41,215 nucleotides of DNA from a virus. The notes below the pieces were generated by a model. That model was not told where the DNA came from. It did not search any database and saw only the letters and a program-made list of their open reading frames with translations. Below are positions 16,281 to 31,880 of the stretch, piece by piece. The stretch is from IMG/VR virus record IMGVR_UViG_3300046450_002134, positions 1 through 41,215 of that record. One strand, written 5' to 3'. Position 1 is the stretch's first letter; each line of letters starts with the position of its first letter. Both the position numbers and the translations under genes were made by a program.

Positions 16281-17423
16281 CTAATTCTGGACGGCGGAGA
16301 GGTACGCGGCGTGCGCGGTCGGGTTTTCGCGAACGAGCGAGCGAACGGCTTTCTGACGCGACAAACCGGACGCGCATTTCGCGGAGAGCAACGAGCCCCA
16401 CGCCGCGATCGGATCGGTCGAGTCGGTGGCGGGGCCGGAGTCGGATCCCTCGTTGATCGGGTCGGAGCCGGGTGCCGGTTTTGGTTCGGGTTTCGCGGCC
16501 GCTGACGTTTCGAGTTCGGCGACCTTGGCCGTCAGTGACTCGTTCGTCGCTTTCAACGCGGCGAGTTCGTCGGTCTGCTGTTTCAGCCAGGCGGTGCTGA
16601 CCTGTTCGAGCGTCGCGGACGCCTCCATCTGACTGACCGCGAAATCGTTCGAGCAACCCGGCGCGGAGGCCTTGATCTCGACCAGTGTCGCGGGTGTCGG
16701 GGCGGTGTTGGTGGTGTCTGTCTTCACGTGAACTTCTCCCGGTGGGGATTGATGAAACGCCGCCGACAGACTGCGGAGAGCCTCCCGTTGTTTTTCGGCG
16801 GTCAGATTGAGCGGCTCGAACTCGCCAAGAGTCGAGACAGGCGAAACGGTTTTCGTGCAGAACCCGGCTTCAACGGCCTCGGCTCCGGATAGCCAGCGTT
16901 CGGAATCCATGAGTTCGGCGAGTTGTTCGGCGTCGAGCGAACTGACGGCGAGATATCGGTCGGTCAGTTGTCCGTTGATGATGTCCAACCGCTCGGCGAG
17001 GGCTCGCAGTTCGGTCGCTTTCAGTGGTTCGTAAGATTCGGCGGCGGCGTGATGCACCATCCACCAGCCGTTTTCGGCGATCACGACTTCGTCGCATTCC
17101 AGAGCGACGATCGTCGCGGCGGACATGGCAACCTCGACCTCGGCACGAGTCGGCTTGCCGAGACGGCGGATCTCGGATGCCAGAGCGTTTCCGCCGATGG
17201 TCGAGCCGCCTTCGGAGAGAATCCGCAACACGTAGCGGTCAACTTCGCCCGCTTCATCGACGAGTGCTCGGAACGTGTCCGGCGAGAAACCGCCCCACCA
17301 CCGCGTCGCGATGCGTTCGTAGATGTAGATTTCGGCGACGGTTTCGCCGCCCTGTTGAGTGACGTTCAACAGGTTTGAAACCGCGTCGAGATCGACGGTG
17401 TCAGTCTGATTTTTTGTTGTCAT
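16281..17423 (-). CDS. ClpP-like head maturation protease with scaffold-like C-terminus
   Basis: 380 residues; ATG 17423-17421 lies inside the last 23 bases of the portal gene. Residues of about 25-210 are an S14 (ClpP-type) domain: the oxyanion Gly segment LSEGGSTIGGNA (69-80), the nucleophile in AMSAATIVAL (Ser101) and the His in WWMVHHAA (His124). The C-terminal part (about 250-380) has a coiled-coil stretch (QQTDELAALKATNESLTAKV) and an acidic Pro/Ser/Asp linker, as in phage proteins where protease and scaffold are fused. The enzyme would trim scaffold and capsid components during prohead maturation. Confidence 0.85.
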   Translation of the reverse strand: MTTKNQTDTVDLDAVSNLLNVTQQGGETVAEIYIYERIATRWWGGFSPDTFRALVDEAGEVDRYVLRILSEGGSTIGGNALASEIRRLGKPTRAEVEVAMSAATIVALECDEVVIAENGWWMVHHAAAESYEPLKATELRALAERLDIINGQLTDRYLAVSSLDAEQLAELMDSERWLSGAEAVEAGFCTKTVSPVSTLGEFEPLNLTAEKQREALRSLSAAFHQSPPGEVHVKTDTTNTAPTPATLVEIKASAPGCSNDFAVSQMEASATLEQVSTAWLKQQTDELAALKATNESLTAKVAELETSAAAKPEPKPAPGSDPINEGSDSGPATDSTDPIAAWGSLLSAKCASGLSRQKAVRSLVRENPTAHAAYLSAVQN

Positions 17424-19026
17424 CGGGGTCGGTACTCACAGCGTTGACGACAATTCCGTCCGGCGTTGGCAGCGGCAACAGGTGCTGCCACGAGACCGGG
17501 GTCGGGTGGTCGGGATACTTCGCGTTGATCTGGTCGGCTCGCGCCATGGCCACCTCGATCGCGTCGCCGTAGGCGTCGATCACCTCGGGATAGAATTCGT
17601 CCCACTCGCGGCCGTGGCGTTTGGCGTGATACGTGACCGGGGATTCCTGCCCTTTGGAGAGCTGGACGTTGTCGGCCGTCGCGTCTTTCAACGGGTCGAT
17701 ATAAGGCCACGCGGGGCGGTTCCACGCGTGCTCGAACAGGTCGACATCCGCCGAGTCGGCGGCGTCTTGCAGCGTGGGGTCTTCGGCCAGCCATTGGCGG
17801 ACCTTCCACTCGTAAACCGGGCGGTAGAGTTCGTCGATCAGCCACGTCTGGAGTTCGCCGTAGCGTTCCCGCGACTTCTGAGTGATGGCTCGTTCGCCGC
17901 TGAAGTTGGTCCGGGTGCCGTCGTAGAGCAGGTCGGTCAGCGGGAGGTCCAGATTGACCGACATAATGCCCAGAATGAGCGACGACATTTCCGCGAACTC
18001 GCCGGCGTTGACGTTGGGGCTGAACGCGCTGAGCTTTTCGCCTTCTTTCCCGCTGTAGATCATGCCGGGGCCGAGGTCGACTTCCGTGTGATCCCAGCCG
18101 GAGCCGGTGACTTCTTCCATTTCGCCGAGGTCGGCGTCGTCGCCGCGTTGGTCGGTCGAGTTGGCCGCACCGAAACCGATGTCGCGTTCCCGCATCACAG
18201 ACCAGCAGGATTGAGTCTGCATAGCCACGAGCTTGGCGAAGCGGATGTCGTCGAGCTGGCCGGGCAGGTCATCCACGCGAGCGAGGGCGGTAACGCCGCG
18301 ATATTGAGTGAAACGCTCTGGCAGGTAGAGGTGGAGAACGAGCGGGTTGTCGTTGTCGTCGTACGCCAGCCGGCGAGTCATTTCGTCGACGCGTTCGACG
18401 GAGGCCGACGTGTCGACGTCCTCTTTAGTAAACCAATACTGCCGCACGGCTCCGGTTGACGAATTCGGCTCAACGCCGTGGATCGGGACGACGCTGTTGG
18501 TTCGCCGACGGGCGTTGCGTGGAGTTCGTAGGCGGTGAGCCTCCAGAGCCTGCAACTGACCGGTTTTCTTGAGTGGCAGGAACGCAACGTCGCCGTCGAT
18601 GATCACACGGCGAAGAGCCAGAGCAGCCAACGTGTGGAAGTTATGTTTGCGGCGGATGTCGCACGCGGTTTTCTTAGTGCTCCACTGTTTCCAGCGTTTT
18701 TTGAGCAGTGCGTCGAGGTCCTTGTCGCCGGTTTTTGGATTCAGCCGGAACCCGTCACGCATCACATTCGTGACCAGCCGTTTCACAGCCACGCCGACCA
18801 GCGGATCGTTGATCTCGAAGTGCCGGGCCATTTCCACCATGCGGAAAAACGCCTGATCGTTCTTCGTGTGAATGCTCGCCCCGACACCGACGGACGCCGT
18901 GCCGAGGTTGACCGAACGGAACCGGGATCCCGATTTCGTCATCCGGTACTCGGCCTGCATCGCGTCGAATGTTGTCTGTAGGCTTTGAGTTTTCGCCGGA
19001 CGAGGCCGGCGCGTAGGCGCGGACAT
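17401..19026 (-). CDS. Portal protein (lambda B-like)
   Basis: 541 residues from ATG 19026-19024, with GAGG six bases upstream; the 89 open codons further up are shadow of the next gene. Recognisable segments: RLVTNVMRDGFRLNPKTGD (stem entry), a central region with RVIIDGDVAFLPLKKTGQL and LVLHLYLPERFTQYRG, then the conserved FAEMSSLILGIMSVNLDLP and ANFSGERAITQKSRE-like helices (here TNFSGERAI) of lambda B-type portals. It forms the dodecameric ring at the capsid vertex for DNA packaging. The tail end overlaps the protease start. Confidence 0.9.
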   Translation of the reverse strand: MSAPTRRPRPAKTQSLQTTFDAMQAEYRMTKSGSRFRSVNLGTASVGVGASIHTKNDQAFFRMVEMARHFEINDPLVGVAVKRLVTNVMRDGFRLNPKTGDKDLDALLKKRWKQWSTKKTACDIRRKHNFHTLAALALRRVIIDGDVAFLPLKKTGQLQALEAHRLRTPRNARRRTNSVVPIHGVEPNSSTGAVRQYWFTKEDVDTSASVERVDEMTRRLAYDDNDNPLVLHLYLPERFTQYRGVTALARVDDLPGQLDDIRFAKLVAMQTQSCWSVMRERDIGFGAANSTDQRGDDADLGEMEEVTGSGWDHTEVDLGPGMIYSGKEGEKLSAFSPNVNAGEFAEMSSLILGIMSVNLDLPLTDLLYDGTRTNFSGERAITQKSRERYGELQTWLIDELYRPVYEWKVRQWLAEDPTLQDAADSADVDLFEHAWNRPAWPYIDPLKDATADNVQLSKGQESPVTYHAKRHGREWDEFYPEVIDAYGDAIEVAMARADQINAKYPDHPTPVSWQHLLPLPTPDGIVVNAVSTDPDDNKKSD

Positions 19027-19028
19027 CG

Positions 19029-19337
19029 TTAACCTCGGAAGGCGGGCGAGAACTTGGAATGCAGGACATTGCGGCGGCGACTGGCCGACGTGGTTCCGGC
19101 GGTCGCGTTGGCGGCGAGCCATTGCTCGGCCGACGCTTTTTGTGCCTGGAGTTCCGCAACGGAGAACTCGAACGTCTGGGCACCGTGGCGGGCTCGCGTG
19201 GGTCGCAGCGTGATCAACCAGTCGCACGCCTCGCGAAACGATTCTGCCTCGGTCGCCGAACTGTTGCGGCGATACGACGACGAATTCTTCCACTGCGCGA
19301 GAGCGTCAGCAATTGTTGATGCGCTGGTGAGAGCCAT
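19029..19337 (-). CDS. gpW-like head-tail joining protein candidate
   Basis: 102 residues from ATG 19337-19335. It lies two bases before the portal gene, the place of lambda W between terminase and portal. It is helical (TIADALAQWKNSSSYRRN, SVAELQAQKASAEQWLAAN) with a basic C-terminus. The segment FREACDWLITLRPTRARHG replaces the short beta hairpin of W, so this may be a functional analogue rather than a homologue. Confidence 0.55.
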   Translation of the reverse strand: MALTSASTIADALAQWKNSSSYRRNSSATEAESFREACDWLITLRPTRARHGAQTFEFSVAELQAQKASAEQWLAANATAGTTSASRRRNVLHSKFSPAFRG

Positions 19338-19424: not shown

Positions 19425-19751
19425 CTATGCCGGCCCGCCGCGAGCCCACCGCTTGTCGAGTTCAAGCTCATATTCAAGCTGAGTGATTCCCCAATCCGTG
19501 CGCAGCGCCGTCCATTCCTTGACATCAAACCGCGAGGCTTCGAGCGAAGCGATCAAGCTCGGCAGCAACTCGATAACGGAGGCAAGGTGAGAATCCCAGA
19601 AATCCGAATCGTCGGCATCGACCGGAGCGGATTCAATGGGTGCCCAGACCGAGAACGGCTCGAACTCGTCGAGGCGCAGGCCGCGGAGATATAGCCACGT
19701 TGCCTGCGTGTGCCTATCGCTCGTACGGAACAGACCGCACATGAACTTCAT
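19425..19751 (-). CDS. Hypothetical protein of the cargo region
   Basis: 108 residues from ATG 19751-19749 (MKFMCGLFRTSDRHTQ); a TTG six codons upstream is possible. Not recognised. The protein is acidic, with a helix-rich middle (HLASVIELLPSLIASLEAS) and several Trp. Its first 38 bases overlap the end of the next gene in another frame. It is the last gene of the lower-GC block between terminase and head genes, and no attC-like site was found after it. Confidence 0.55.
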   Translation of the reverse strand: MKFMCGLFRTSDRHTQATWLYLRGLRLDEFEPFSVWAPIESAPVDADDSDFWDSHLASVIELLPSLIASLEASRFDVKEWTALRTDWGITQLEYELELDKRWARGGPA

Positions 19752-19968
19752 TCGCAGACCGTGGCTCAACAGTCACTGCACAGCCAACCAATCGTCCCCC
19801 CGCCTTGTATGTGTCAACGCCTCGCACTTCGATTCCATCATCGTCCAGAAATCGCACTTCAAATTGGCACCTTCCGTCTGGTGCCACAAATCTCACGGTA
19901 TCGCCAACCACTAACTCAACATCACAACTGACAGGGTGTCCCGTCTGAATTGTTCGCTTTTCATCCAT
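19714..19968 (-). CDS. Small beta-rich hypothetical protein
   Basis: 84 residues from ATG 19968-19966, which has an AAAGGTGG ribosome site about eight bases upstream; a GTG four codons earlier lacks one. The sequence (VELVVGDTVRFVAPDGRCQFEVRF... and later LVGCAVTVEPRS) looks like a single small beta-barrel (SH3/KOW-like), but I do not recognise a family. It is the first gene downstream of attC-like site 1, so it would begin the next cassette. Confidence 0.55.
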   Translation of the reverse strand: MDEKRTIQTGHPVSCDVELVVGDTVRFVAPDGRCQFEVRFLDDDGIEVRGVDTYKAGGRLVGCAVTVEPRSANEVHVRSVPYER

Positions 19969-19991
19969 CCGCACATCCACCTTTCATCGCA

Positions 19992-20078
19992 CATAACATC
20001 AAATGCACCGGAGCGGCGTCATCGTCGCTCCGGAATGGCCGGACTGTTAGCGGCGGCCCGGTGATTATTGTCGTTATG
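19992..20078 (-). repeat. attC-like site 1 (imperfect inverted repeat, 87 bp)
   Basis: Outer boxes CATAAC (19992-19997) and GTTATG (20073-20078) are exact complements. Inner boxes CACCGG (20006-20011) and CCGGTG (20058-20063) pair, and the centre carries a further hairpin (20008-20015 with 20026-20033). The TAA of the upstream ORF (20076-20074) lies inside the GTTATG box. End sequences are shared with sites 2-4 while the centres differ, as in integron attC sites. Confidence 0.65.
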
Positions 20079-20361
20079 ACTCTACCCCGAGAATCAAACG
20101 CATCAGTGTTCGCACGTCGTCCAGCGTCTTTCGCGGCCCGAATGATCCCAGGCCATTCACCTGCCACCGATCATCCCTTGGCCTCCACGCAATGCGAGCA
20201 TGACGCAAGCGATGGTGCCAGGCGTTTCTAATTTCAGGATGTGGCGTCAACACATACCATTCACCAGTGTCATCAAGCGTGAACCCGAGGGATTGCATCC
20301 CATTCACGTCATAACCATCTGTTGCAGCAGAGGCCTCATTGTCGTGTGTTTTTGTAGTCAT
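20074..20361 (-). CDS. Hypothetical cassette protein
   Basis: 95 residues from ATG 20361-20359, with AAGGGA five bases upstream. The N-terminal 30 residues are polar and likely disordered. The rest has GEWYVLTPHPEIRNAWHHR and ARIAWRPRDDRWQVNGLGSF, followed by a helix. Not recognised. Its stop codon is embedded in attC-like site 1, the arrangement of an integron gene cassette. Confidence 0.6.
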   Translation of the reverse strand: MTTKTHDNEASAATDGYDVNGMQSLGFTLDDTGEWYVLTPHPEIRNAWHHRLRHARIAWRPRDDRWQVNGLGSFGPRKTLDDVRTLMRLILGVES

Positions 20362-20404
20362 CGTTTCCCTTTCGGCCCGTGCTGAACCGTGGCGTTCGCT
20401 GTGC

Positions 20405-20677
20405 TCAGTCGATTGGTGCATCGGGAACGTAATTTGCCAGAAGTGCTCGCATCACGTCATCCGCGTTGAAGTCCTCAAACGCAAACACAGTGAAGTCATC
20501 TCGGTTGCCTCGAAACTTCATCGACCGATATGTCACAGGCCGAAACGTGTCTGTTGATTTAGGCCGCTCGTCAATAACTCGCACAGGTTCGTGAACCGGA
20601 AAATGGACTTCCGTGCATCCATCCTCGACGGCGTATCGCTGCCCGTCATGATTACCGCCAACGAAAAGACTCTTCAT
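20405..20677 (-). CDS. Small hypothetical protein of a widespread phage type (VGGxxDGQ)
   Basis: 90 residues from ATG 20677-20675, with AGGGGG seven bases upstream. The N-terminus MKSLFVGGNHDGQRYAV and TEVHFPVHEP match a common small phage protein pattern (FVGGPADGR...V) of unknown function. The C-terminus YRSMKFRGNRDDFTVFAFEDF is beta then helix. Overlaps the next gene start by four bases (ATGA-like junction). Function unknown. Confidence 0.65.
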   Translation of the reverse strand: MKSLFVGGNHDGQRYAVEDGCTEVHFPVHEPVRVIDERPKSTDTFRPVTYRSMKFRGNRDDFTVFAFEDFNADDVMRALLANYVPDAPID

Positions 20678-21021
20678 CGAACGCCCCCCTGTATTCGTCG
20701 CAACAGCGAACAATGCAATGAACCGGAGATGCGGTCCACGCTGTCTTCAGGGTACTGGTCTTCGTCGACCTCAACACGAAACAGCCACGATCGGGCATCA
20801 ACAGGATCGCTGCTCGCTCGAAATGCACGACGTGCCCGCACGACGATTCGCTCCAACTCATTGACGCGTCGCGAAAGAACTCGACCCGCACCAATCACGG
20901 TTGTCATGTTCACGCGAATGTCGCCTTCCCATTCTTCGGCTGCGACTATCTCTTTTGATTTGTTGATCGCTGGATGTTGTGCCATAAGCCAGATAACAAG
21001 GCGGTCAAGCCTATCCCTCAT
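20674..21021 (-). CDS. Helical hypothetical protein
   Basis: 115 residues from ATG 21021-21019 (MRDRLDRLVIWLMAQHP); a GTG ten codons upstream is possible. Largely helical and charged, with a RRVNELERIVVRARRAFRA stretch. Not recognised. It overlaps the next gene by four bases, so it is probably co-translated with it. Confidence 0.55.
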   Translation of the reverse strand: MRDRLDRLVIWLMAQHPAINKSKEIVAAEEWEGDIRVNMTTVIGAGRVLSRRVNELERIVVRARRAFRASSDPVDARSWLFRVEVDEDQYPEDSVDRISGSLHCSLLRRIQGGVR

Positions 21022-21088
21022 TGTCGCGTGTTTAGAATGGCCAGCCTTCACGTTCGGGCCGGCTTACCTTGGGTCGTTCTACAGTCAC

Positions 21089-21391
21089 TCAGCGTTTCGA
21101 CGATCGGAAACAATTCTCGCACGTCGCCACGCCGTCCGCGTCCCACGTCACGCTTGCATCGCACCCCAACGAGCACACCCAGAATCGGATTCCATCCGCC
21201 GCGAAGATCGGGGCCAGCGGCTCTACGATTTCGCACATTGCCCGGTAATGTTCACACATCTTCGCAATGTCTTCTGCTCGGACGTTGCCTAGCAGTCTGG
21301 CAGCCGCTTCCCATCCACGAGCACACTGTTCCACCTTATCGGCGGACGTGTCAGCCGTTCCAAGTCGCAGCAAATCCGAAGCGGCAAACAT
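21089..21391 (-). CDS. Small protein with C-terminal zinc-ribbon-like motif
   Basis: 100 residues from ATG 21391-21389 (MFAASDLLRLG). A helical N-terminal part is followed by FWVCSLGCDASVTWD and VATCENCF, that is CxxxC ... CxxC, a likely zinc-binding ribbon. No partner or reaction can be named. The next gene upstream also ends in a Cys pair motif, so two neighbouring small proteins may each bind zinc. Confidence 0.55.
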   Translation of the reverse strand: MFAASDLLRLGTADTSADKVEQCARGWEAAARLLGNVRAEDIAKMCEHYRAMCEIVEPLAPIFAADGIRFWVCSLGCDASVTWDADGVATCENCFRSSKR

Positions 21392-21398
21392 AGCAACA

Positions 21399-21671
21399 TT
21401 ACCTGCAATCAAAACATAATTTCTTATCGGCACTCTCAACAAACAGTTCCCCACAATCAATACACGGTTTCATTTCCATTCGACTACGAACAAGAGTCAG
21501 CTCCACCTGAGCCTGAAGCTTTTCCCAACCAAACCTCGCCATGTATCCTGCAACGGCCGAACGCACAGCATCGTCCGGAATCGCTCCAACAAACCCTTCG
21601 GTGTCCATCGTCCAGATATCAGCGGGCCACGGGCACTCAACGGGTAAAGGCATGACAGGTAACAATTCCAA
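21399..21671 (-). CDS. Small protein ending in a CxxC...CxxC zinc ribbon
   Basis: Up to 90 residues; TTG 21671, ATG 21653 or ATG 21608 could be the start, and none has a clear ribosome site. The C-terminus KPCIDCGELFVESADKKLC FDC is a compact four-Cys zinc ribbon (two CxxC pairs 14 residues apart), as in many small nucleic-acid-binding proteins. It begins just downstream of attC-like site 2, which overlaps its possible TTG start. Confidence 0.55.
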   Translation of the reverse strand: MELLPVMPLPVECPWPADIWTMDTEGFVGAIPDDAVRSAVAGYMARFGWEKLQAQVELTLVRSRMEMKPCIDCGELFVESADKKLCFDCR

Positions 21672-21746
21672 TGCACGCGAGTTGCCGACATCGCGCTTTG
21701 AAGTCGCAGAATCACACGCGGCAACCGCGTGATTGGTGGCTTTATG
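21657..21746 (-). repeat. attC-like site 2 (imperfect inverted repeat, about 90 bp)
   Basis: Boxes GTAAC (21659-21663) and TTTATG (21741-21746) mark the ends. The inner arms CACGCG plus GTTGCCG (21674-21679, 21681-21687) pair with CGGCAAC plus CGCGTG (21719-21731), 13 bp with one bulged base at 21680. The TAA of the gene at 21742-21996 lies in the TTTATG box. A single extrahelical base in the arm is a hallmark of attC, although its side relative to the ORF is not the usual one. Confidence 0.6.
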
Positions 21747-21996
21747 TGGCTACAGGTTCGGACAGCGAAAACTCACTGTACGCCATCCCTTCCGAACCAC
21801 CCGGCCTCATGACCGCTTCGCTCGAAACCTGAGAGACACGGCCCCAACAAACAGACTCGACGCCGTCTCCCCAACCATCATTCGCCCTCGCATACTCTCG
21901 TTCGTCTTCTAATTGTCGTTCGGCTGTCGCCCTTGCCGAGTCCTCAGAATCGTGCAATTCAAATCCGGCGTTGGCTGAGTACGAAAACCATTCCAT
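21742..21996 (-). CDS. Small acidic protein, single-gene cassette
   Basis: 84 residues from ATG 21996-21994. The pattern EWFSYSANAGFELHDSEDSA, then ATAERQLEDEREYARANDGW and VESVCWGRVSQ matches a small protein seen in many phages (Y...G...H.TEEEA...AE..L...R...A..GW...V..I.WG); its function is unknown. It is flanked on both sides by attC-like sites (site 3 upstream, site 2 over its stop codon), so alone it forms a unit of about 350 bp, like a typical integron cassette. Confidence 0.7.
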   Translation of the reverse strand: MEWFSYSANAGFELHDSEDSARATAERQLEDEREYARANDGWGDGVESVCWGRVSQVSSEAVMRPGGSEGMAYSEFSLSEPVAT

Positions 21997-22006
21997 CGCG
22001 AAACCA

Positions 22007-22092
22007 CTTACCTTAAATGCACCGGAGCAACCGTCGGCGCGGTTTTAGAATTCTCAGTCACCAGCGGTTGATCGGTGATTATAGGCGTCCGT
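22007..22092 (-). repeat. attC-like site 3 (partly degenerate)
   Basis: Shares AAATGCACCGGAGC with site 1 (14 identical bases) and CGGTGATTAT at the other end. Arms CACCG/CGGTG and CAACCG/CGGTTG (22028-22033 with 22065-22070) pair. The outer boxes (CTTACC, GCGTCC) have drifted from CATAAC/GTTATG, so this site may no longer recombine. The upstream ORF stops at 22103, 11 bases before it. Confidence 0.5.
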
Positions 22093-22102
22093 CCATTCTC
22101 AT

Positions 22103-22309
22103 CTACTCCCCGCTGGCGTTAGTCAGCCTCAGCCACTCGCGAAACGCCTTCGAGCGTTTTATGGTGGTCTCGATCGTCTCGGCGGCGTTGTCGCATTCCC
22201 GAAGATACTGGACCACCACCGGGTCGAGCTTGGTCCCATACGCGATCTTCGCTGTCCCGTCAGGGGCGGGCTTTCGCCCGGCCCCGGTTCGCTTGCCGCC
22301 GTGTTTCAT
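22103..22309 (-). CDS. Small ribbon-helix-helix-like DNA-binding protein
   Basis: 68 residues from ATG 22309-22307, with GGAGTG five bases upstream. The N-terminus KHGGKRTGAGRKPAPDG is the basic tail found in a large group of small phage/plasmid proteins. KIAYGTKLDPVVVQYLREC and NAAETIETTIKRSKAFREW then give a strand-helix-helix pattern typical of ribbon-helix-helix repressors. It overlaps the preceding gene (ATGA). It could regulate the duplicated promoter upstream, but nothing in the sequence proves this. Confidence 0.7.
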   Translation of the reverse strand: MKHGGKRTGAGRKPAPDGTAKIAYGTKLDPVVVQYLRECDNAAETIETTIKRSKAFREWLRLTNASGE

Positions 22310-22485
22310 GCGTTCACTCCCGCAATTCTTTCGTTCTGTCCTCGCCCGCAGTTGTAAATCAAATACCAGCCGCCCTTAACTACACCAGACACTGCTGCGT
22401 AGTGTTGGCTGATAAACACTGCCACGAATCCATCGTATTTGCCGTTCGCTGCGTTTTCCGCTTGCGCTTTAGTGTTGAATACCAT
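22306..22485 (-). CDS. 59-residue small protein behind duplicated promoter copy 1
   Basis: Found by direct translation (too short for a 60-codon cutoff). ATG 22485-22483 follows AAAGG eight bases upstream, and the stop overlaps the next start (GCATGA). The protein begins MVFNTKAQAENAANGKYDGF and continues with VAVFISQHYAAVSGVVKGGW and YLIYNCGRG, a probable small alpha/beta fold. Not recognised. Its 5' leader is identical to that of the gene at 22883-23125, so both are expressed from copies of the same promoter. Confidence 0.65.
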   Translation of the reverse strand: MVFNTKAQAENAANGKYDGFVAVFISQHYAAVSGVVKGGWYLIYNCGRGQNERIAGVNA

Positions 22486-22532
22486 CGTTTCGGCCTTTGG
22501 TTGAGTGTTGCGTTGTCGTGTCTTGTGCGGTC

Positions 22533-22572
22533 ATCTTAGCATCGTCTTGATTACCGTCAAGACGTCAGTCAA
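22533..22572 (-). promoter_or_regulatory. Promoter and operator-like palindrome, copy 1
   Basis: Minus strand: -35 TTGACG (22560-22555), 16-base spacer, -10 TAAGAT (22538-22533). A 26-bp imperfect palindrome (22547-22572, three arm mismatches) covers the -35. It would drive the gene at 22485, with a short leader of about 40 bases. Confidence 0.6.
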
Positions 22573-22596
22573 GGAATCCGGGAAGAATTCTCAAAC

Positions 22597-22629
22597 AAAA
22601 AAAGCCCGGCCAGAATCAACTGGCCGGGC
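22597..22629 (-). terminator. Rho-independent terminator, copy 1
   Basis: Minus strand: a 9-bp stem GCCCGGCCA/TGGCCGGGC with an 8-base loop (22629-22604) followed by seven T. It ends the transcript of the gene at 22647-22808 just before the next promoter. Confidence 0.85.
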
Positions 22630-22646
22630 TCGCTTGCCGCCGTGAC

Positions 22647-22808
22647 TTACCATTCTGCAAGCTCGGTCTTGAGTTCGATCTTTTCGCCATACACCCACAT
22701 CGCCAGATCCTTGACTTCGCCAATAGTTCCAGCGTCATTACTCGGGCCGTGCGGTCCAACGTATCGGTAAGCGTCTCGCGTTGCGTTTATCTGAATCGTG
22801 ATTGACAT
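22647..22808 (-). CDS. 53-residue hypothetical protein
   Basis: Starts at ATG 22808-22806 (MSITIQINATRDAYRYVG), with AAGGA seven bases upstream; the longer open frame includes repeat-derived sequence and is not used. It continues with DAGTIGEVKDLAMWVYGEK. Not recognised. It lies between the hairpin at 22841-22866 and terminator copy 1, so it forms a small transcription unit or the end of one. Confidence 0.6.
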   Translation of the reverse strand: MSITIQINATRDAYRYVGPHGPSNDAGTIGEVKDLAMWVYGEKIELKTELAEW

Positions 22809-22840
22809 CGTGTGTTCCTTTGGTTGAGCGTTTGAAAGAT

Positions 22841-22866
22841 GCCCGGCCAGAATCAACTGGCCGGGC
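22841..22866 (-). repeat. Third copy of the terminator hairpin, without T-run
   Basis: The same 26-base stem-loop as the two terminators, but followed on the minus strand by CATCTTTC instead of seven T. It lies 16 bases after the stop of the gene at 22883. It could act as a processing or stabilising hairpin, or be a decayed terminator. Confidence 0.8.
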
Positions 22867-22882
22867 TCGCTTTGGCTGAGGA

Positions 22883-23125
22883 TCACGCGACCACCTGTGC
22901 CGCCGTTCCGATCATTTCGGCGATGTTCTTATTCTTGTATCCGCTGATTGCTTCTTCGAAAGTCTTAAAGCTTCTGCCGGCACTCAGTGCCTTCGTCGTG
23001 TAAACAGTCACAGGAAAGAAGTGTGCCGGAGAATAGGAGACCATGACGTCGCGTTTTTCAGTTGAAAGCTCGACGTAAGTCGTTCCGTTGTTCGTTGTGT
23101 TGTCGATCTCTGTGATAAGTACCAT
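22883..23125 (-). CDS. Hypothetical protein behind duplicated promoter copy 2
   Basis: 80 residues from ATG 23125-23123, with AAAGG eight bases upstream, the same leader as the 59-residue gene. The N-terminal half is beta-rich (TYVELSTEKRDVMVSYSP), followed by HFFPVTVYTTKALSAGRSF and a helical end (KTFEEAISGYKNKNIAEMI). The K.F.TFEEAI..YK pattern resembles small proteins with an added regulatory helix, but no family is assigned. Confidence 0.6.
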   Translation of the reverse strand: MVLITEIDNTTNNGTTYVELSTEKRDVMVSYSPAHFFPVTVYTTKALSAGRSFKTFEEAISGYKNKNIAEMIGTAAQVVA

Positions 23126-23172
23126 CGTTTCGGCCTTTGGTTGAGTGTTGCGTTGTCGTGTCTTGTGCGGTC

Positions 23173-23212
23173 ATCTTAGCATCGCCTTGATTGACGTCAA
23201 GACGTCAATCAA
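23173..23212 (-). promoter_or_regulatory. Promoter and perfect operator-like palindrome, copy 2
   Basis: Minus strand: TTGACG (23200-23195), 16-base spacer, TAAGAT (23178-23173). The palindrome 23187-23212 has perfect 12-bp arms, TTGATTGACGTC and its complement, around AA, and overlaps the -35, a typical repressor-binding arrangement. Confidence 0.65.
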
Positions 23213-23236
23213 AGAATCCGGAAAGAATTCTCAAAC

Positions 23237-23269
23237 AAAAAAAGCCCGGCCAGAATCAACTGGCCGGGC
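23237..23269 (-). terminator. Rho-independent terminator, copy 2
   Basis: Identical stem-loop (23269-23244) followed by seven T on the minus strand, 22 bases after the methyltransferase stop codon. It separates the methyltransferase transcript from the next promoter. Confidence 0.85.
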
Positions 23270-23290
23270 GGGTGTCGACGTGGCGATCGC

Positions 23291-24031
23291 CTAAAATAGC
23301 ACACCCTGCCTCAATCGTTCGGCGGCAGTTTCGCAATACCGTTCCTCGCCCTCAATCCCGATCGCTCGTCGTCCGCTGTTTTTCGCGGCTCGCAACGTTG
23401 TACCGCTCCCCATAAACGGATCGAGGACGATTCCTCCCACGGGCACCGTTGGTTCCAACAGCCACCCCAGCATCTCAACCGGTTTCTCGACAGGATGCAC
23501 CCTGTCTGACGACGGCGTCGCCTTAAACTGCATGACATCGCTCCGCAGTTTGTTGTCGTCCACAAACTCCGCCGCCTTCCACCTGGCCGCGATCACCAGC
23601 TCATGTTGGTTGCGCCAAACCCTGCCCAGCCCGACGCGCCCCTTGTCCCACACCAACGACTTCAAAAAGTCGAACCGGCGATACATTTCCGGGTAGAACA
23701 CCGCGAAACTGTCAGCATTGCAAAACGTGAGCATGTGGCCGCTTCGCTTCATCTGTGCGACGCACAGATCAACCACCTGAGACCAAAACGATCCAAGGAC
23801 CGATGTGTCCGACCACGACCGCTGCCAGTCGACTCGAGACTGATAGTGCGTCGCCGGCATAAAGAACGGTGGGTCCGTGATCACGGCATCTACCTTGCCA
23901 ACGTGTGGCAGGATGTTTCGGCAGTCGCCGTGGTAAATCGTTATCCCGTCGTGCTCGTAGTAAGGCTCAACAGGCAGAACAAGAGCATCAACTTGATCGT
24001 CGGGCTTTTTGTCAGTCACGGCTGAATCCAT
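23291..24031 (-). CDS. DNA methyltransferase (N4-cytosine or N6-adenine, beta-type order)
   Basis: 246 residues from ATG 24031-24029. Motif IV DPPF (53-56) comes first, after HGDCRNILP; HPVEKPVEML (179-188) is the usual HP..KP motif, and motif I DPFMGSGTT (204-212) is C-terminal, binding S-adenosylmethionine. This order is that of beta-class amino-methyltransferases. No restriction endonuclease is beside it, so it is an orphan enzyme; likely roles are protection of phage DNA against host restriction or marking of packaging/regulatory sites. DPPF rather than DPPY leaves adenine or cytosine open. It lies between attC-like site 4 and terminator copy 2. Confidence 0.9.
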   Translation of the reverse strand: MDSAVTDKKPDDQVDALVLPVEPYYEHDGITIYHGDCRNILPHVGKVDAVITDPPFFMPATHYQSRVDWQRSWSDTSVLGSFWSQVVDLCVAQMKRSGHMLTFCNADSFAVFYPEMYRRFDFLKSLVWDKGRVGLGRVWRNQHELVIAARWKAAEFVDDNKLRSDVMQFKATPSSDRVHPVEKPVEMLGWLLEPTVPVGGIVLDPFMGSGTTLRAAKNSGRRAIGIEGEERYCETAAERLRQGVLF

Positions 24032-24040
24032 TCGAGTATC

Positions 24041-24125
24041 TATCCTTCAAATTCACCCGGGCGGCGGTCCACGTCGCACCCGATGGCAAGGCCGCTGGCC
24101 GGTGCCGGGTGATTTTGGGCGTTAT
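24041..24125 (-). repeat. attC-like site 4 (imperfect inverted repeat, about 85 bp)
   Basis: Arms CACCCGG (24054-24060) and CCGGGTG (24105-24111) pair, and GCGGC (24061-24065) pairs with GCCGC (24091-24095). The outer GTTAT box (24121-24125) contains the TAA of the gene at 24122-24649. The opposite outer box (TATCC) is weak. Shares GGTGATTTTGGGCGTTAT-type ends with the other sites. Confidence 0.55.
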
Positions 24126-24649
24126 TTTGCAGCAGGGCGGAGTGCCGTGCCGATGACACCAAACAGCCAGCGGAATACCTCGGGGCGGGTGTCGACGTGC
24201 TTGCCGTTTTCGAGTTGCACGTGAGCGTCGCGGCAGCCGGCGTGCAGGTGCTGCATTCCTCGGATCTGGTCGGGATCACGCAGACGGGTCTGGACCGCCG
24301 GGGCCGAGTAGTCTGTCTGGCGGGCGATGTAGCCGTCGGGCGTGGCGATCGGAACGCGGATCTCCAACCAGGTGACACCGTCCGGCGTGGTTTCGGTTTT
24401 CGTCGACGGGGCGGGTTCCGTCTCCGGTGCGGGCGTGTCCGCGTCGAATAATTCAGACGGCGGACATCCGGCCGCGATCCAGTGCAACACCTCCTCGGCG
24501 TCATAGGATCGATCCGGCCGCATCGGAAACCCGCCGAGCGACCGAAGTTTCTTCAGCTTGAACTCGGTCACTCCGCAGAGTTTCGCCAGATCTCTGAGGT
24601 TGTTGACCGTTCCGTCAGTTTGTGATTTCGCCGCCGTGCGTTTCGCCAT
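24122..24649 (-). CDS. Winged-helix (Nu1-like) DNA-binding protein
   Basis: 175 residues from ATG 24649-24647, with AAGGA six bases upstream. Residues of about 15-60 (NNLRDLAKLCGVTEFKLKKL ... YDAEEVLHWIAAG) form a MerR/Nu1-like winged helix-turn-helix, the DNA-recognition fold of terminase small subunits. A Pro/Thr/Glu-rich linker follows, and the C-terminal half is unassigned. It is directly downstream of the large terminase subunit and so is a second Nu1-like protein in the packaging operon. Its stop codon is inside attC-like site 4. Confidence 0.65.
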   Translation of the reverse strand: MAKRTAAKSQTDGTVNNLRDLAKLCGVTEFKLKKLRSLGGFPMRPDRSYDAEEVLHWIAAGCPPSELFDADTPAPETEPAPSTKTETTPDGVTWLEIRVPIATPDGYIARQTDYSAPAVQTRLRDPDQIRGMQHLHAGCRDAHVQLENGKHVDTRPEVFRWLFGVIGTALRPAAK

Positions 24650-24662
24650 CTGAAGTTCCTTG

Positions 24663-26663
24663 TTAATTCCGCCGCTGAGTTGCAACAAACGCCTGACCGG
24701 ATGGTGTCTTGAGGCCCGACCGTTTGACGGCCGAGCGGTTTCGCCGCTGAGTTGCGGCCACCTCCTGAGTCGATCGAGCCGGGAAACGATCCCACCTCGC
24801 GCCGTGTCGCGTGCCGTAATGCTCCGCACCGACGAGGCTGTAACGCCATGCGTCGCCGCGTTCGTTCGCTCCTGATTTGAGCCACTTGCCCGCCTCGAAA
24901 TACTCGTTGATCAGTTCGTCGAGGAACTCTTCGTCGTCACACGCTTCGAGCGGGATGCCGAAGAAGTCGACCGAGTCTCGCGTGACGAGGCCGGACGTCT
25001 GGTCGACTCGCCATTCCTGCGTCCGTTGCGTGTTGACGATCAGCAGGTCGCCGAGGCCGGCCTTTTTACGGGCGGCCAGCACCTTCGGCGGGACGTTGGT
25101 TCGCTGGTATCCCATCTGAAACAGGTCCGGGAAGTGCGAGTTGCTCGACCCCTTGATCGGCCAGGCTTTGTCGAAATCCTCGCAGAGGCCGTAGATCGTG
25201 TGGGAGACGTCGCCGTCGCCGGAGTCGATACAGACTCGCGTGGCGGTCATCGGGGCGAGGCCGTCGGCGTGTGGGTAACCGTCGCGGAACCATTCGAGCA
25301 ACAGTTCGCGGAACGCCTCCATCCCGTACGTGATGCCGGTGTCGACGAGCTGGCCGCGGCGACCCCAGAGTTTCCCCTCGCCGTTCTGGCGAGCCCAGGC
25401 GGACACGACCCAATGGAAAATCAGGTTGTCGTTGACTCGGCCGACATCGACGCCGATCGTGAGGAACCGAGCGAACTCCGGACAGACTCGCAGCGGTTCG
25501 TCGACGCCGAGGCGTTCGATGAGCTGGTGAGCGCTGACACGTTGCGGCCGCGGGTCGAACGTTTCGCCCTCCCACGAGTTGACGAAATGCCGGCGGAGTT
25601 CTGTGCGGTCGGTCGGGTTCGCCGTCAGAGCGGTGACGTGTTCGCGAGCAACGAGGCCGATCGAGATGCCCGGCAACAGACTCGCCAGCGTCGGCAACGG
25701 CCCGAACGAGGCGTGAGGGCCGACACGATTCGGGGTGCCGACCACCTTGCCGCGGCGGATTTTACAACCCTCGGGAACCCACAACCCGCCCTGCAACATT
25801 TCAAACCGCTGGTGCTCGTGGATCCGGCCGGAGCACTTTTCGCATTGATAGTACGCTGTCTGGAACGCCTTCGTCGGATCGAGGCGGCCGTTGAGTTTCG
25901 AGAACCGGATCCCGCCGGGAGTTTTCCCGTCGCCGGTTTTCAGTTGCTGGAATGCGTTGCATTTTGGGCACGGGACAAACCAGCCGCGGTTGTCACCGAG
26001 CAGCCGTTGCTTCTCGATGTACGATTCGCCCTTCAGTGTCGGCGTCGACATTTCGAGGATCTTCGAGCCGATATATCCCTTGGCTCGTTCGCACATCAGA
26101 TAACGAAAGTCCGCCTCGGAGTCGGTCGACGAGTGAACCATTTTGTCGGTCTCGTTGAGCACGACTACAAACGCCCCATAATCGGCGGCCGAACTAGCCG
26201 AACGAGACCACGCGCCATGCACGACGAACGTCGGGAGATTCATTTGGTCGCCGGCCTGCATGTGTCGCGGCGGACAGAGTTCAGCCAACCCCTCGGTGCG
26301 TTCGAACATCCGCCACGTTCTTTTAAGGACGCGTTTTGTCGAGCGTTCGTCGGCGTCGGCCCACGCCATCGGGTGCGGATTTGTCGCCCCAACCTTCGCG
26401 ACCACAAATTGCGCGAGTGTAGTTTTTCCAACCTGAGCCGCCGTCTGAATCGATAGCCGCTCGACTTCCGGATCGTCGAACGCGTCAAGGATCCCGACCG
26501 CGTGAGGGAACAGGTCCAGCCGTGCGCGGCCCTTGAGTTTCGAATCAGGCGGCATCGACACCGACGACGTGAGCCAGGCGGCCGTCGATATTTGCGGGCG
26601 CGGCAAAATACAATCGAGGACGTCGGCGCGAATCAGTGGCGATGATGAGAGTGGCGCAATCAT
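24663..26663 (-). CDS. Terminase large subunit (GpA family)
   Basis: 666 residues; ATG 26663-26661 overlaps the small subunit stop (ATGA). Walker A-like QTAAQVGKTT (73-82), Walker B VVVLNETDK with Glu171, a four-Cys zinc site (CPKC 232-235, CEKC 274-277), then a nuclease domain with GVDVGR (Asp406) and CIDSGDGD (Asp480, 483, 485). This domain order is that of lambda-type GpA terminases, which cut concatemers and pump DNA into proheads. The final 40 residues contain a short repeat (VAATQRRN, FVATQRRN), with matching DNA repeats at 24675-24760. Confidence 0.95.
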   Translation of the reverse strand: MIAPLSSSPLIRADVLDCILPRPQISTAAWLTSSVSMPPDSKLKGRARLDLFPHAVGILDAFDDPEVERLSIQTAAQVGKTTLAQFVVAKVGATNPHPMAWADADERSTKRVLKRTWRMFERTEGLAELCPPRHMQAGDQMNLPTFVVHGAWSRSASSAADYGAFVVVLNETDKMVHSSTDSEADFRYLMCERAKGYIGSKILEMSTPTLKGESYIEKQRLLGDNRGWFVPCPKCNAFQQLKTGDGKTPGGIRFSKLNGRLDPTKAFQTAYYQCEKCSGRIHEHQRFEMLQGGLWVPEGCKIRRGKVVGTPNRVGPHASFGPLPTLASLLPGISIGLVAREHVTALTANPTDRTELRRHFVNSWEGETFDPRPQRVSAHQLIERLGVDEPLRVCPEFARFLTIGVDVGRVNDNLIFHWVVSAWARQNGEGKLWGRRGQLVDTGITYGMEAFRELLLEWFRDGYPHADGLAPMTATRVCIDSGDGDVSHTIYGLCEDFDKAWPIKGSSNSHFPDLFQMGYQRTNVPPKVLAARKKAGLGDLLIVNTQRTQEWRVDQTSGLVTRDSVDFFGIPLEACDDEEFLDELINEYFEAGKWLKSGANERGDAWRYSLVGAEHYGTRHGARWDRFPARSTQEVAATQRRNRSAVKRSGLKTPSGQAFVATQRRN

Positions 26664-27399: not shown

Positions 27400-28461
27400 T
27401 CAACTCGCCGCCGTCGACCTGACTGGCCGAGCCGGTGGCGTCTCGTTGTGGTGCCGCGAGTGGAGGCCGAGGAGTTCGGCGAACGACAGCCGACCGAGGC
27501 TCGCAGCGGCGAATGCCGAGCGGTGATTCGGGTGCGTCCTGAGATGCGTGAGCAAGTCGTCCCGAGTCGAGCCGGGGAACGTCCAGCGAGGGCCGGCGAG
27601 GCGAGACGTCGAGGCTTGAGGCGAGGCCGCCGTCGTCTCGGTCAGTCGCCAGCGTCTCACCAGCTCGTCGAGGCCTTGCCAACCTTGGATCCCGAACCGT
27701 TGATCGTGAACGTCTCGCCACTCGAAATACGGCAACGAGGCCGGGAACGGGTGAGGCTCGGGAACGAGCTGGATCGAGAACGGCAGCGAGCCGGCGGCGG
27801 CCGCCGCCGCGAGGGCCGACTGAGCGGTTTTGCAAGGCCCGCACCAACTCGCGACGAACATCGTCACGACCGGCAGTTCGGCGACGGCGGGTGACTGACC
27901 GATCGGGTCGGTGTCCGTCCACGCAATATCGAACCGACGCGAGAACTTGAGAGGGCCAGACTCGACGTGTGCCGTGCCGGTGTTGTCGGTTGATAGATCG
28001 AGGCGAGCCAGGCGGGGCGAGAGCTTGAGGCCCCATTTCCGAACGCTCACCGTCGGCCGTGGATTGGCGAACGTGATCGAGCCACCCGACGGACCGAGCT
28101 CGTATTCCAAGCGGGTGCCGGGGGGGATGGTCAGCGTTGCCTCGGGCCGACGGAGCACGATCGGTGACGCGGGGTCAACGGTCAACGAACCGGAATCCCC
28201 GAGCAGTTCGTAGAGCGTGGCAACCAGCGAGGCCTCGGCCGAAACCGCCAGCGAAATATCTCGATCCTCGGGCGAATCATCCGGCGAGACAATTACAGGG
28301 GGGGGGGGATTTTTTTCGGTGGTATCGTCAGGCGGCGAGGCTGGAGCGATGCAGCCTGACAGGCCCGCGAACGTAAACAACAACAGAACCCACATTGCAG
28401 CGACGGCCAAAACGATAACCGATCGAGCCGCGAAACTTTTCAAGTCTCGGAGTTTTTCCAT
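27400..28461 (-). CDS. Thioredoxin-like lipoprotein (WCGPC)
   Basis: 353 residues from ATG 28461-28459, overlapping the protease stop by one base. The N-terminus has basic residues, a hydrophobic stretch and a lipobox LSGC (Cys37), so it should be exported and lipid-anchored. A Pro/Asp-rich linker and a beta-rich domain (SLTVDPASPIVLRRPEATLT) lead to a thioredoxin fold with PVVTMFVASWCGPCKTAQ (active site Cys207/Cys210). The C-terminal tail (about 285-350) is unassigned and His/Arg-rich. It could reduce or rearrange disulfides in envelope proteins. It follows a papain-like protease, so the pair may act together on a disulfide-linked protein wall; this is inference. Confidence 0.8.
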   Translation of the reverse strand: MEKLRDLKSFAARSVIVLAVAAMWVLLLFTFAGLSGCIAPASPPDDTTEKNPPPPVIVSPDDSPEDRDISLAVSAEASLVATLYELLGDSGSLTVDPASPIVLRRPEATLTIPPGTRLEYELGPSGGSITFANPRPTVSVRKWGLKLSPRLARLDLSTDNTGTAHVESGPLKFSRRFDIAWTDTDPIGQSPAVAELPVVTMFVASWCGPCKTAQSALAAAAAAGSLPFSIQLVPEPHPFPASLPYFEWRDVHDQRFGIQGWQGLDELVRRWRLTETTAASPQASTSRLAGPRWTFPGSTRDDLLTHLRTHPNHRSAFAAASLGRLSFAELLGLHSRHHNETPPARPVRSTAAS

Positions 28462-29279
28462 TACATCCCCCACGAGCTGAATGGCCGAGTCCGATCGAAC
28501 CCGGTCAGGTCGGTAACGCCACGCATGACCGAATAAGGCCGGCCGCATAGATAGTTGAGCGCCTCGGGATCAACTCGGGCGATCCCGTTTTCGCCCCAGT
28601 TCGAGCCCCATGAATTAGCGAGCAGAAACTGACCGGCGAGATTGAACCCGACGAGGCAAACCGCGTGCCCACCTCGGCCACCGTCCTCGCGGACATCGCG
28701 ATCAGTGAGCCGGCCTGTCGACGAGCCCATTCGTTTAGTCCAGAGCACGCCGCAAACGATCGAGCCGAAACCGGCTTCGAGGAATCGCCGGGCGTCGTCG
28801 ACCGAACTGATCTCGACCTGATTTTCCAGGCGGTAGTTTTTCGCCGCCGTGTAAGCCAGCCCGGTCAGAGACGAGCCGCGCTCGCCATACGGGGCGACTG
28901 ATTCGGGACAGACCCCGTCGGAGATCGCGGCCTGAACGCCGTGCGCGATCGTGCAACCCTGCCGGTTGTCGGTGCGACCGAGCCATTTCTGCTGGCCGTT
29001 CTGCCAGGCAAACCGCCGACTGAGTTGCGGGATGTCCTCCCAGCGACGCGACGCGAGACCGGCCGCACACTCCGCCGCCGTCGTCACCGCATGACCGACG
29101 CACGACGGGAGCGATCCCTGATTCTCGACGCGGAGGAACGCCGTCGGATCTAGTTCGTCGTGAACCTCGCCCTCGGCCGGGCTGGCCGCCGAGAACGCAA
29201 TCGAGGTCATATCGAGCCGCTCGTTGTCGGTCTCGCCGTGCTTCAGAATATCGTAGCCGGTGAAGAGTTCATCGCTCAC
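28461..29279 (-). CDS. Papain-like cysteine protease (C1 family)
   Basis: 272 residues. GTG 29279-29277 overlaps the previous stop (GTGA). Catalytic residues appear in order: Gln54 in VENQG, nucleophile Cys60 in SLPSCVGHAV, His205 in GRGGHAVCLVGF, and Asn222 in LLANSWGSNWGENG. GCTIAHGVQAAISDG and ESVAPYGE match the conserved middle of C1 peptidases. There is no signal peptide or propeptide, so it would be cytoplasmic unless released by a holin-type protein; two membrane proteins lie just upstream. Possible roles are lysis, envelope digestion or host takeover. An unusual enzyme for a tailed phage. Confidence 0.9.
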   Translation of the reverse strand: MSDELFTGYDILKHGETDNERLDMTSIAFSAASPAEGEVHDELDPTAFLRVENQGSLPSCVGHAVTTAAECAAGLASRRWEDIPQLSRRFAWQNGQQKWLGRTDNRQGCTIAHGVQAAISDGVCPESVAPYGERGSSLTGLAYTAAKNYRLENQVEISSVDDARRFLEAGFGSIVCGVLWTKRMGSSTGRLTDRDVREDGGRGGHAVCLVGFNLAGQFLLANSWGSNWGENGIARVDPEALNYLCGRPYSVMRGVTDLTGFDRTRPFSSWGM

Positions 29280-30635: not shown

Positions 30636-31649
30636 TTAGCCAGCGAAGGCGCGGCCGACTTTCAACAGGTCGTCCAGCCGATCGAGCGGCAAACGTTGAG
30701 CGAGTTCGGCCAGCGAGTGCTCACGAGAAAACCGAGCGTTCCGTTCGTCAGCCGTCAGCATTGCCGAGGGCCACGGCCGTCGAGGCAACGCGGCGACGAG
30801 CACAGCCAACCCGTCGACATAGCGTGACATCACGCCCGACAATCCCGAGCCCTGAATCATTTCGCCGGCCGACCATCCGCCGCCGATCGCCCACTGAGTG
30901 ACAGCGGCTCGGCGTAACGGTTGAGGCCCGAACGCCTCGGCGTCACCAGCGAGGCGAGACAGCTCGCGACGCAACAGACGCTCCTGACTGGCCGAGATCG
31001 GAAAGACACGGTCGTCACCGGCCGAGCGGAGCGGGGCGAGGTGACGTTCGACGATCGGGCAATTCGGGATGCGGTGCCGTTTACTGGTTTTTGAGGCCTG
31101 CCAGTCGATCAGGTCGGGCGTGATCGACGACCAGGTGATCGTCCGGAGATCGCGCAACCGGAAGCCCGTGTGAAACGCAAACACCATAAACGCTCGCAGC
31201 CAGACCGCCGACGAGACAACGCGGAGAGCTGGCGATCGCGTCAGGTGACAGTTCGGCCAGTTCGCGACGTCGGCGTTCTCGTAGGCTGCCGAGATCCGAT
31301 CGAGACTCGGGACGAATTTCGTCGCCGATGTCTTCCACCGTTTCAGCCGACGGCCCATTTCTTTGAGGCCGCAAATGAGAGCGAGATCGTTCACAGTTTC
31401 CTCGATCGTCCGTGCTGATAGCCCGGCAGCCTTCGCCAATACTCTAAAGGCGTCGAAATCCGCCGGCGTGATGTCCGTCGTCGTTTGTTGCGAGTGACGG
31501 TTCCAACAGTTGAGCCTGTGCCGAAGTTTAGCGGCCGTCTCGACCGTCAGGTCAGACCGCTCAACATAGTTAGAAACAGCCTCAACCAGTTTCAATATGC
31601 CCCCCCGACTAACAGTCGAGGGACTCCGTTCCCGAGATTCGAATTCCAT
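30636..31649 (-). CDS. Tyrosine recombinase (integrase-like, atypical active site)
   Basis: 337 residues from ATG 31649-31647. Core-binding domain to about residue 120; catalytic domain with Arg164 in HTGFRLRDLR, Lys187 in SKTSKR, Arg246 in PQPLRRAAV and Tyr277 in MSRYVDG. The usual His of HxxR is Gln243, and no His precedes the Tyr (IQGSGLSGV), so this is a diverged recombinase whose activity is uncertain. It lies about 180 bases from the tRNA-Pro fragment, the usual position of an integrase next to attP, and reads away from it. It is the first gene of the leftward set. Confidence 0.8.
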   Translation of the reverse strand: MEFESRERSPSTVSRGGILKLVEAVSNYVERSDLTVETAAKLRHRLNCWNRHSQQTTTDITPADFDAFRVLAKAAGLSARTIEETVNDLALICGLKEMGRRLKRWKTSATKFVPSLDRISAAYENADVANWPNCHLTRSPALRVVSSAVWLRAFMVFAFHTGFRLRDLRTITWSSITPDLIDWQASKTSKRHRIPNCPIVERHLAPLRSAGDDRVFPISASQERLLRRELSRLAGDAEAFGPQPLRRAAVTQWAIGGGWSAGEMIQGSGLSGVMSRYVDGLAVLVAALPRRPWPSAMLTADERNARFSREHSLAELAQRLPLDRLDDLLKVGRAFAG

Positions 31650-31829
31650 CTACGCAGTAAAAAACATCGGCAACGAAAACAGAACGAACGCCCACAAAAT
31701 GTACGGAAAGGTGTCAGCTCTAACGTTCACGGAACCAATCGTACGATCGCTGCCGGAGGCGTGTCACTAATTCCCGGAACAACCCGGCAATAAATGTCGA
31801 GCCGTGTCACACCGCCAGCCGCCGAGTTG

Positions 31830-31880
31830 AGCGCTGCGTTCGGGACGCAGAGGTCGCAGGTTCAAATCCTGTCATCCCGA
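31830..31880 (+). other. attP-like core: 3' part of a tRNA-Pro(CGG) gene
   Basis: About 50 bases match the 3' half of a proline tRNA: anticodon arm CTGCG-TTCGGGA-CGCAG (anticodon CGG), variable loop AGGTC, T arm GCAGG-TTCAAAT-CCTGT and acceptor strand CATCCCG plus discriminator A at 31880. No complementary acceptor (CGGGATG) or D arm lies upstream, so it is not a full gene. Temperate phages carry such fragments to restore the tRNA after integration. Confidence 0.8.

Follow-up and report, generated by a model that had tools for sequence, protein, structure and literature searches.

What kind of element lies between the terminase and portal genes of a temperate phage was the question raised by IMG/VR virus record IMGVR_UViG_3300046450_002134, whose 41,215 nucleotides were analysed as a whole and are called the window here. 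The initial annotation of this gap had proposed four attC-like sites forming a cluster of attC sites lacking an integrase (CALIN) and had suggested a covariance model as a check. Such a model was built from 48 diverse aligned sites from bacterial genome contigs, mostly of planctomycetes, with phage records excluded, and nine of the 18 predicted pairs of this alignment showed compensatory change. On the window it gave five matches within 4.1 kb, all on the plus strand, with E-values, which are rough, between 6e-11 and 2.7e-6. Each of the four proposed sites was matched within a few bases, while a fifth at 20310-20399 had been overlooked. The rest of the 41 kb gave nothing except site 1 read backwards at 18 bits. 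A sequence-only profile recovered three of the five sites. At its gathering scores, Rfam found no attC in the window and only a weak tRNA-like match, a direct-repeat search found parts of the sites only, and a 13-base motif with up to three mismatches was not significant by itself.

The sites have the architecture of attC, namely an imperfect palindrome with outer (R'' and R') and inner boxes in which one inner arm bears an unpaired base, and the stem covaries in the family. The arms ATGCACCGGAG and CCGGTGAT of planctomycete attC are exact in site 1; site 3 has ATGCACCGGAG together with CGGTGAT, and the other sites carry varied forms. The bulge is the extra G of ATGCAC against GTGAT and gives plus polarity to all sites of the window. 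Its polarity had been described as unusual in site 2, which is correct for this site but is no peculiarity of it, as all the others share it. Folded as single-stranded DNA, sites 1 and 2 were far better than shuffled sequences (z -2.7 to -3.6) and sites 3 and 4 moderately better. The fold of the fifth site was no better than that of shuffles, and it is thus the weakest of the five. Intergenic sequences that fold could also be terminators or regulatory hairpins of the phage with a mere resemblance to attC. This reading is hardly credible, as sequence and bulge match planctomycete attC with E-values down to 6e-11, arrays of the same sites adjoin integron integrase genes (intI), and the exchange breaks described below lie at G/TTA (the slash marks the break).

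The same type of site was found in bacterial chromosomes. A search of genome contigs for the pattern of site 1 (TGCACCGGAG, a loop, CCGGTGAT, six bases and CGTTA) gave 110 matches. These often formed arrays, most notably in Rubripirellula obstinata. Planctomycetota supplied most of the records, and a few were from cyanobacterial, proteobacterial or other bins. All four planctomycete genomes with these sites that were searched for intI contained it above the curated cut-off. In strain SV_7m_r, at least twelve sites stand in one run beside intI and all point away from it, and genome bin.28 has the same layout. Open reading frames (ORFs) of the bacterial arrays follow the polarity of the sites and frequently have their stop precisely at the TAA within R''. 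Thus, the sites belong to the attC type of planctomycete integrons and their polarity can be read. The window record itself gave no match to the integron integrase model TIGR02249, as the initial annotation had stated. With several attC close together and no intI nearby, the region counts as a CALIN, carried by a temperate phage, and not as a complete integron, for which intI would be needed. As a separate observation, record G024 (L178, 605-1130) has two adjacent fragments by an attC that match the integron integrase family at residues 1-33 and 288-315; they represent an intI that has lost most of its middle part.

The host phage is a temperate tailed phage: according to PHROG matches, the cluster is flanked by genes for terminase, portal, head protease and major head protein, two tyrosine integrases are encoded in the window, and related prophages occur in host genomes. 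The two ends of the window share an overlap of 133 bases with 132 identities, so that the genome is circular or terminally redundant. Terminases homologous to that of the window occur in planctomycete genomes (best ∼50% identity), which supports a planctomycete host. The gap between terminase and portal measures 5.4 kb in the window, compared with ∼0.3-0.7 kb and no attC in the five relatives that have both genes (one viral record and four prophages, with the unmatched N-terminus of the portal allowed for). The whole block is therefore an insertion. No match at E≤1 was obtained with the covariance model on 102 kb of loci from related phages and prophages, and megablast found no near-identical DNA in the phage collection. 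A second contig, L011, is identical to the window over 7.9 kb; it was considered as evidence of variation at site 2 and rejected, as the identity continues to the end of that contig. Outside the array, a tRNA-like sequence at 31823-31880 (Rfam RF00005, 30.1 bits, barely above threshold; none by ARAGORN) adjoins the integrase gene 30636-31649 and is perhaps a remnant attachment site. By eye, ORF 28461-29279 resembles a papain-type cysteine protease, with relatives in the array-bearing phages L137 and L139 (25-27% identity).

The cargo genes of the window are on the minus strand and thus opposite to the polarity of attC. Three TAA stops (20074, 21742 and 24122) lie inside an outer box, as had been noticed before. 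The claim that this is the known arrangement of integron gene cassettes does not hold, since genes in bacteria stop in R'' and those of the window in R', running against attC. A gene direction along attC with an end at R'' is the usual feature of cassettes rather than a strict requirement, 26 of the 233 bacterial cassettes being exceptions. Polarity was compared between 32 viral records with arrays, in 15 groups, and 41 bacterial genomes, with ORFs scored by codon use (trained outside the arrays for phages). The viral records had 84 reversed, 5 normal and 55 undecided intervals, the bacterial contigs 26 reversed, 207 normal and 156 undecided ones. Four of the five normal viral intervals belong to L184, a prophage record with an array of bacterial type, whose number resembles those given to isolate genomes in IMG; with L184 left out, Fisher's test on the intervals gave p 9e-52. 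As intervals are not independent, the groups weigh more: 13 of 15 phage groups were wholly reversed, one was tied and one (L184) was normal, compared with a single bacterial genome with a reversed majority, based on one call. A test free of gene calls, which counted frames open over 100 codons or more with their end in a box, gave 12 in R'' and 49 in R' for viruses against 122 and 28 for bacteria (p 4.5e-17). These differences suggest that phages maintain a pool of cassette genes of their own and exchange them. Apart from this comparison, one viral record (G040, L192, 5814-14520) contains two attC clusters of opposite polarity, and another (G035, L187/L188) has two clusters ∼17 kb apart.

The reversal may have been inherited rather than selected. 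One inverted attC would have entered the operon of an ancestral phage and spread by recombination, with only genes in operon direction being retained. Cassette genes mostly have the direction of the adjacent phage genes, with a few exceptions, and one near-identical attC occurs in otherwise unrelated phages, while the exact common phage attC was absent as a pattern from 392 planctomycete genomes. Against this stand the arrays of L175 and L181, which oppose the surrounding genes and are still reversed, and the number of groups with arrays at unlike loci (∼15), for all of which one common event would be needed. We rate such a founder event at slightly below an even chance.

Turnover of cassettes was observed in related phages, for which the initial annotation had suggested a comparison: the same kind of site is found there with different genes in between, and the nearest relatives of the window are without the whole insertion. 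Phages with backbones of 94-97% identity carry different arrays. The flanks of the arrays in L137 and L183 are 97% and ∼91-95% identical, but L137 has one attC and L183 has four; the left break lies at G/TTATG in L137, and the shared attC diverges directly after CGTT. L175, L181 and L146 have a common backbone around the array and within it mainly the attC sites in common. One unit is 99% identical between L146 and L181, whose backbones are ∼70% identical, and the match of the two units begins and ends at CGTTA. Judged from these boundaries, the exchange is as expected of a cassette moved by IntI, and L174 and L181 have a similar unit in common. No intI over the cut-off was found in 37 viral records, only weak generic matches, which points to a host IntI acting in trans. 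A tyrosine recombinase of the phage could be the mover instead. Two such enzymes are encoded in the window, a recombinase gene ends inside the last attC in L139, and a relative of the window integrase adjoins the array in L146. As the unit boundaries are of the IntI type and the 37 records gave nothing beyond generic matches, we regard a phage enzyme as quite improbable and prefer IntI of the host. Two further features of phage arrays were seen. GIY-YIG endonuclease genes, one of the SegE type, stand in the arrays of L135 (10281-10835) and L191 (17904-18350), so that homing endonucleases appear from these sequences to serve as cargo. In a phage record of 70.7 kb (G023, L176/L177), a 127-base terminal repeat lies inside an attC, and the array therefore spans the record ends.

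Several points weigh against the reading of a cassette array turned over by host IntI. Site 3 had been called degenerate and indeed has neither R box, yet sites 2 and 4 and the fifth site are degenerate as well, and both boxes can be read intact in site 1 only. Judged by these letters, the array is probably decaying and may no longer be able to recombine. The unit of site 4, with five genes and nearly 2 kb, is large for a single cassette. All evidence of mobility comes from other phages. Furthermore, the viral collection consists of IMG/VR contigs, some of them computer-called. When a few proteins from array-bearing contigs were compared with PHROGs, about half of the contigs had no match to a known phage gene; the other half matched terminase, tape measure, primase or helicase. 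The array could be a fossil, that is, a stretch of a host integron captured once by illegitimate or homologous recombination, followed by decay only, with no cassette traffic in the lineage. The degeneration of four of the five sites and the lack of variation in L011 agree with this. Still, a captured stretch would have kept the gene direction of the host, while the window genes are reversed, and related phages show turnover and exact-unit exchange. A fossil is thus considered unlikely, and we hold with good confidence that the window carries a partly decayed CALIN with reversed cassettes that was turned over by host IntI in trans.

According to this favoured explanation, a small, partly decayed cassette array would sit among the structural genes of a temperate planctomycete phage, within their operon, its cargo units being separated by planctomycete-type attC hairpins. 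Host IntI in trans would act on the folded recombinogenic strand of attC and cut R' at G/TTA, by which units would be gained, lost and exchanged. Being antisense to attC polarity, the genes would be read from the phage operon and not from an integron promoter. In these phages, the recombinogenic strand of attC is also the coding, mRNA-like strand of the genes. The substrate of IntI is the bottom strand of attC in its folded form; in Vibrio cholerae, this strand is on the leading-strand template, which limits excision, and inversion of the array raises excision (PMC11023631). If genes and replication are co-directional in the phage, the recombinogenic strand would be on the lagging-strand template and could be more recombinogenic. 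It is held that the strand chosen by the integrase sets the orientation in which cassettes are expressed at attI, and that excision is limited by the way chromosomal arrays are oriented (PMC11023631). Phages with the recombinogenic strand consistently on the coding side would be a natural test of both ideas.

The features of the array and its borders are listed in the table.

Table. Sites, cargo and bordering genes of the attC cluster in the window.
Feature	Position	Strand	Remarks
Portal protein	17401-19293	-	Downstream border of the insertion, with small ORF 19029-19337; phrog_21 E 3e-52; synteny with five relatives
Unit of site 1	19425-19980	-	Two small ORFs (19425-19769, 19714-19980), no family match
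attC site 1	19992-20078	+	49.8 bits, E 8e-11; R'' CATAAC and R' GTTATG intact; fold z -3.0 and -3.1
Cargo ORF	20074-20421	-	TAA stop complementary to the TTA of the site 1 R' box; no family match
Fifth attC	20310-20399	+	33.0 bits, E 2.7e-6; degenerate, R' GTTCGC; overlaps the 5' part of the preceding ORF
Unit of site 2	20405-21671	-	About four small overlapping ORFs (20405-20713, 20674-21051, 21089-21460, 21399-21671), no family match
attC site 2	21658-21746	+	50.2 bits, E 6e-11; strong stem; R' degenerate, TTTATG for GTTATG; fold z -3.6 and -2.7
Unit of site 3	21742-21996	-	Single cargo ORF (84 aa) that stops in R' of site 2
attC site 3	22010-22088	+	35.0 bits, E 8e-7; inner arms kept, neither R box left
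First part of site 4 unit	22103-23125	-	Four small ORFs (22103-22309, 22306-22485, 22647-22886, 22883-23125)
DNA N6/N4 methyltransferase	23291-24031	-	Pfam PF01555 E 9e-25; phrog_67 E 9e-51
attC site 4	24039-24126	+	36.5 bits, E 3e-7; R' GTTATT kept; R'' degenerate, without AAC
ORF between site 4 and terminase	24122-24829	-	Stop in R' of site 4; weak small-terminase-like match, phrog_57 E 6e-4
Terminase large subunit	24663-26663	-	Upstream border of the insertion; phrog_15 E 9e-80

A coding signal was detected in ORF 20405-20713. The 68-aa ORF adjoining site 3 (22103-22309) has a relative of 80% identity beside attC in phage record L142. Further relatives of this protein and of the cargo protein at 20074 were searched for in viral contigs and nothing new was found. 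ORF 24122-24829, whose true start is probably near 24650, had no homologue in the terminase-portal gap of the relatives. A hidden extra attC in the methyltransferase unit was considered and rejected, as none was found with filters off. Within the unit of site 4, two 158-nt blocks of 94% identity each cover the start of a small minus-strand ORF and the preceding stretch, and the hairpin GCCCGGCCAGAATCAACTGGCCGGGC is present in three copies (blocks and hairpins at 22472-22629, 22835-22872 and 23112-23269). These repeats resemble promoter or terminator modules around different small genes.

The methyltransferase, which would plausibly protect the phage DNA from restriction, is recurrent cargo of phage arrays and, in this sample, the only cassette family present in both phage and bacterial arrays. 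Three viral contigs contained relatives of ∼60% identity with no clear attC adjoining (best E 0.07). Three bacterial copies, those of L047, L083 and L115 (the last one beside intI), have the reversed direction seen in phages. The window enzyme and the copy beside intI are 32% identical overall; their common descent is thus old, whichever way it ran. Four of six confident reversed chromosomal cassettes had a strong PHROG match, compared with one of ten same-direction controls; in this small sample, a phage origin of reversed cassettes is suggestive only. It is conceivable, and we propose it tentatively as somewhat doubtful, that planctomycete phages have their own cassette economy of inverted polarity, exchanged via host IntI, and that the reversed cassettes, which are a minority in host integrons and include the methyltransferases of L115, L083 and L047, came from phages. 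This bears on the long-standing question of where integron cassettes originate: if the proposal is true, phages are one source of them, and as their pool would be recognisable by gene polarity, candidate phage-derived cassettes could be separated from others in any integron array.

The window belongs to a kind of element that has already been described. Phage CALINs, including some with methyltransferase cargo, were reported in 2023 for phages TJE1, P12002L, PH101 and Myoviridae MW202573, and of the six sites assayed in that study, five were recombined by IntI1 (Qi et al. 2023, PMC9892861). In the papers searched, which are part of the literature, reversed polarity, a phage-associated attC subtype and exact-unit exchange between phages were not found. 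Like those elements, the window has attC clusters without intI and carries small genes of no known function and a DNA methyltransferase, and several ORFs lie between sites in one case there as well (PMC9892861). It differs in that its attC are of the planctomycete type and of one polarity, with reversed genes, whereas the genes of TJE1 run along attC. Reversal is therefore not a rule for all phages, TJE1 being outside this group. With the chromosomal integrons of planctomycetes (Rubripirellula obstinata, SV_7m_r and others) the window shares the sequence and structure class of attC, but these have intI, longer arrays and genes mostly along attC that end in R''. Vibrio anguillarum phages with a captured chromosomal integron similarly carry integron material in a temperate phage; they retain intI together with part of the host array (PMC9892861), while the window is without intI and its genes run opposite to those of host arrays.

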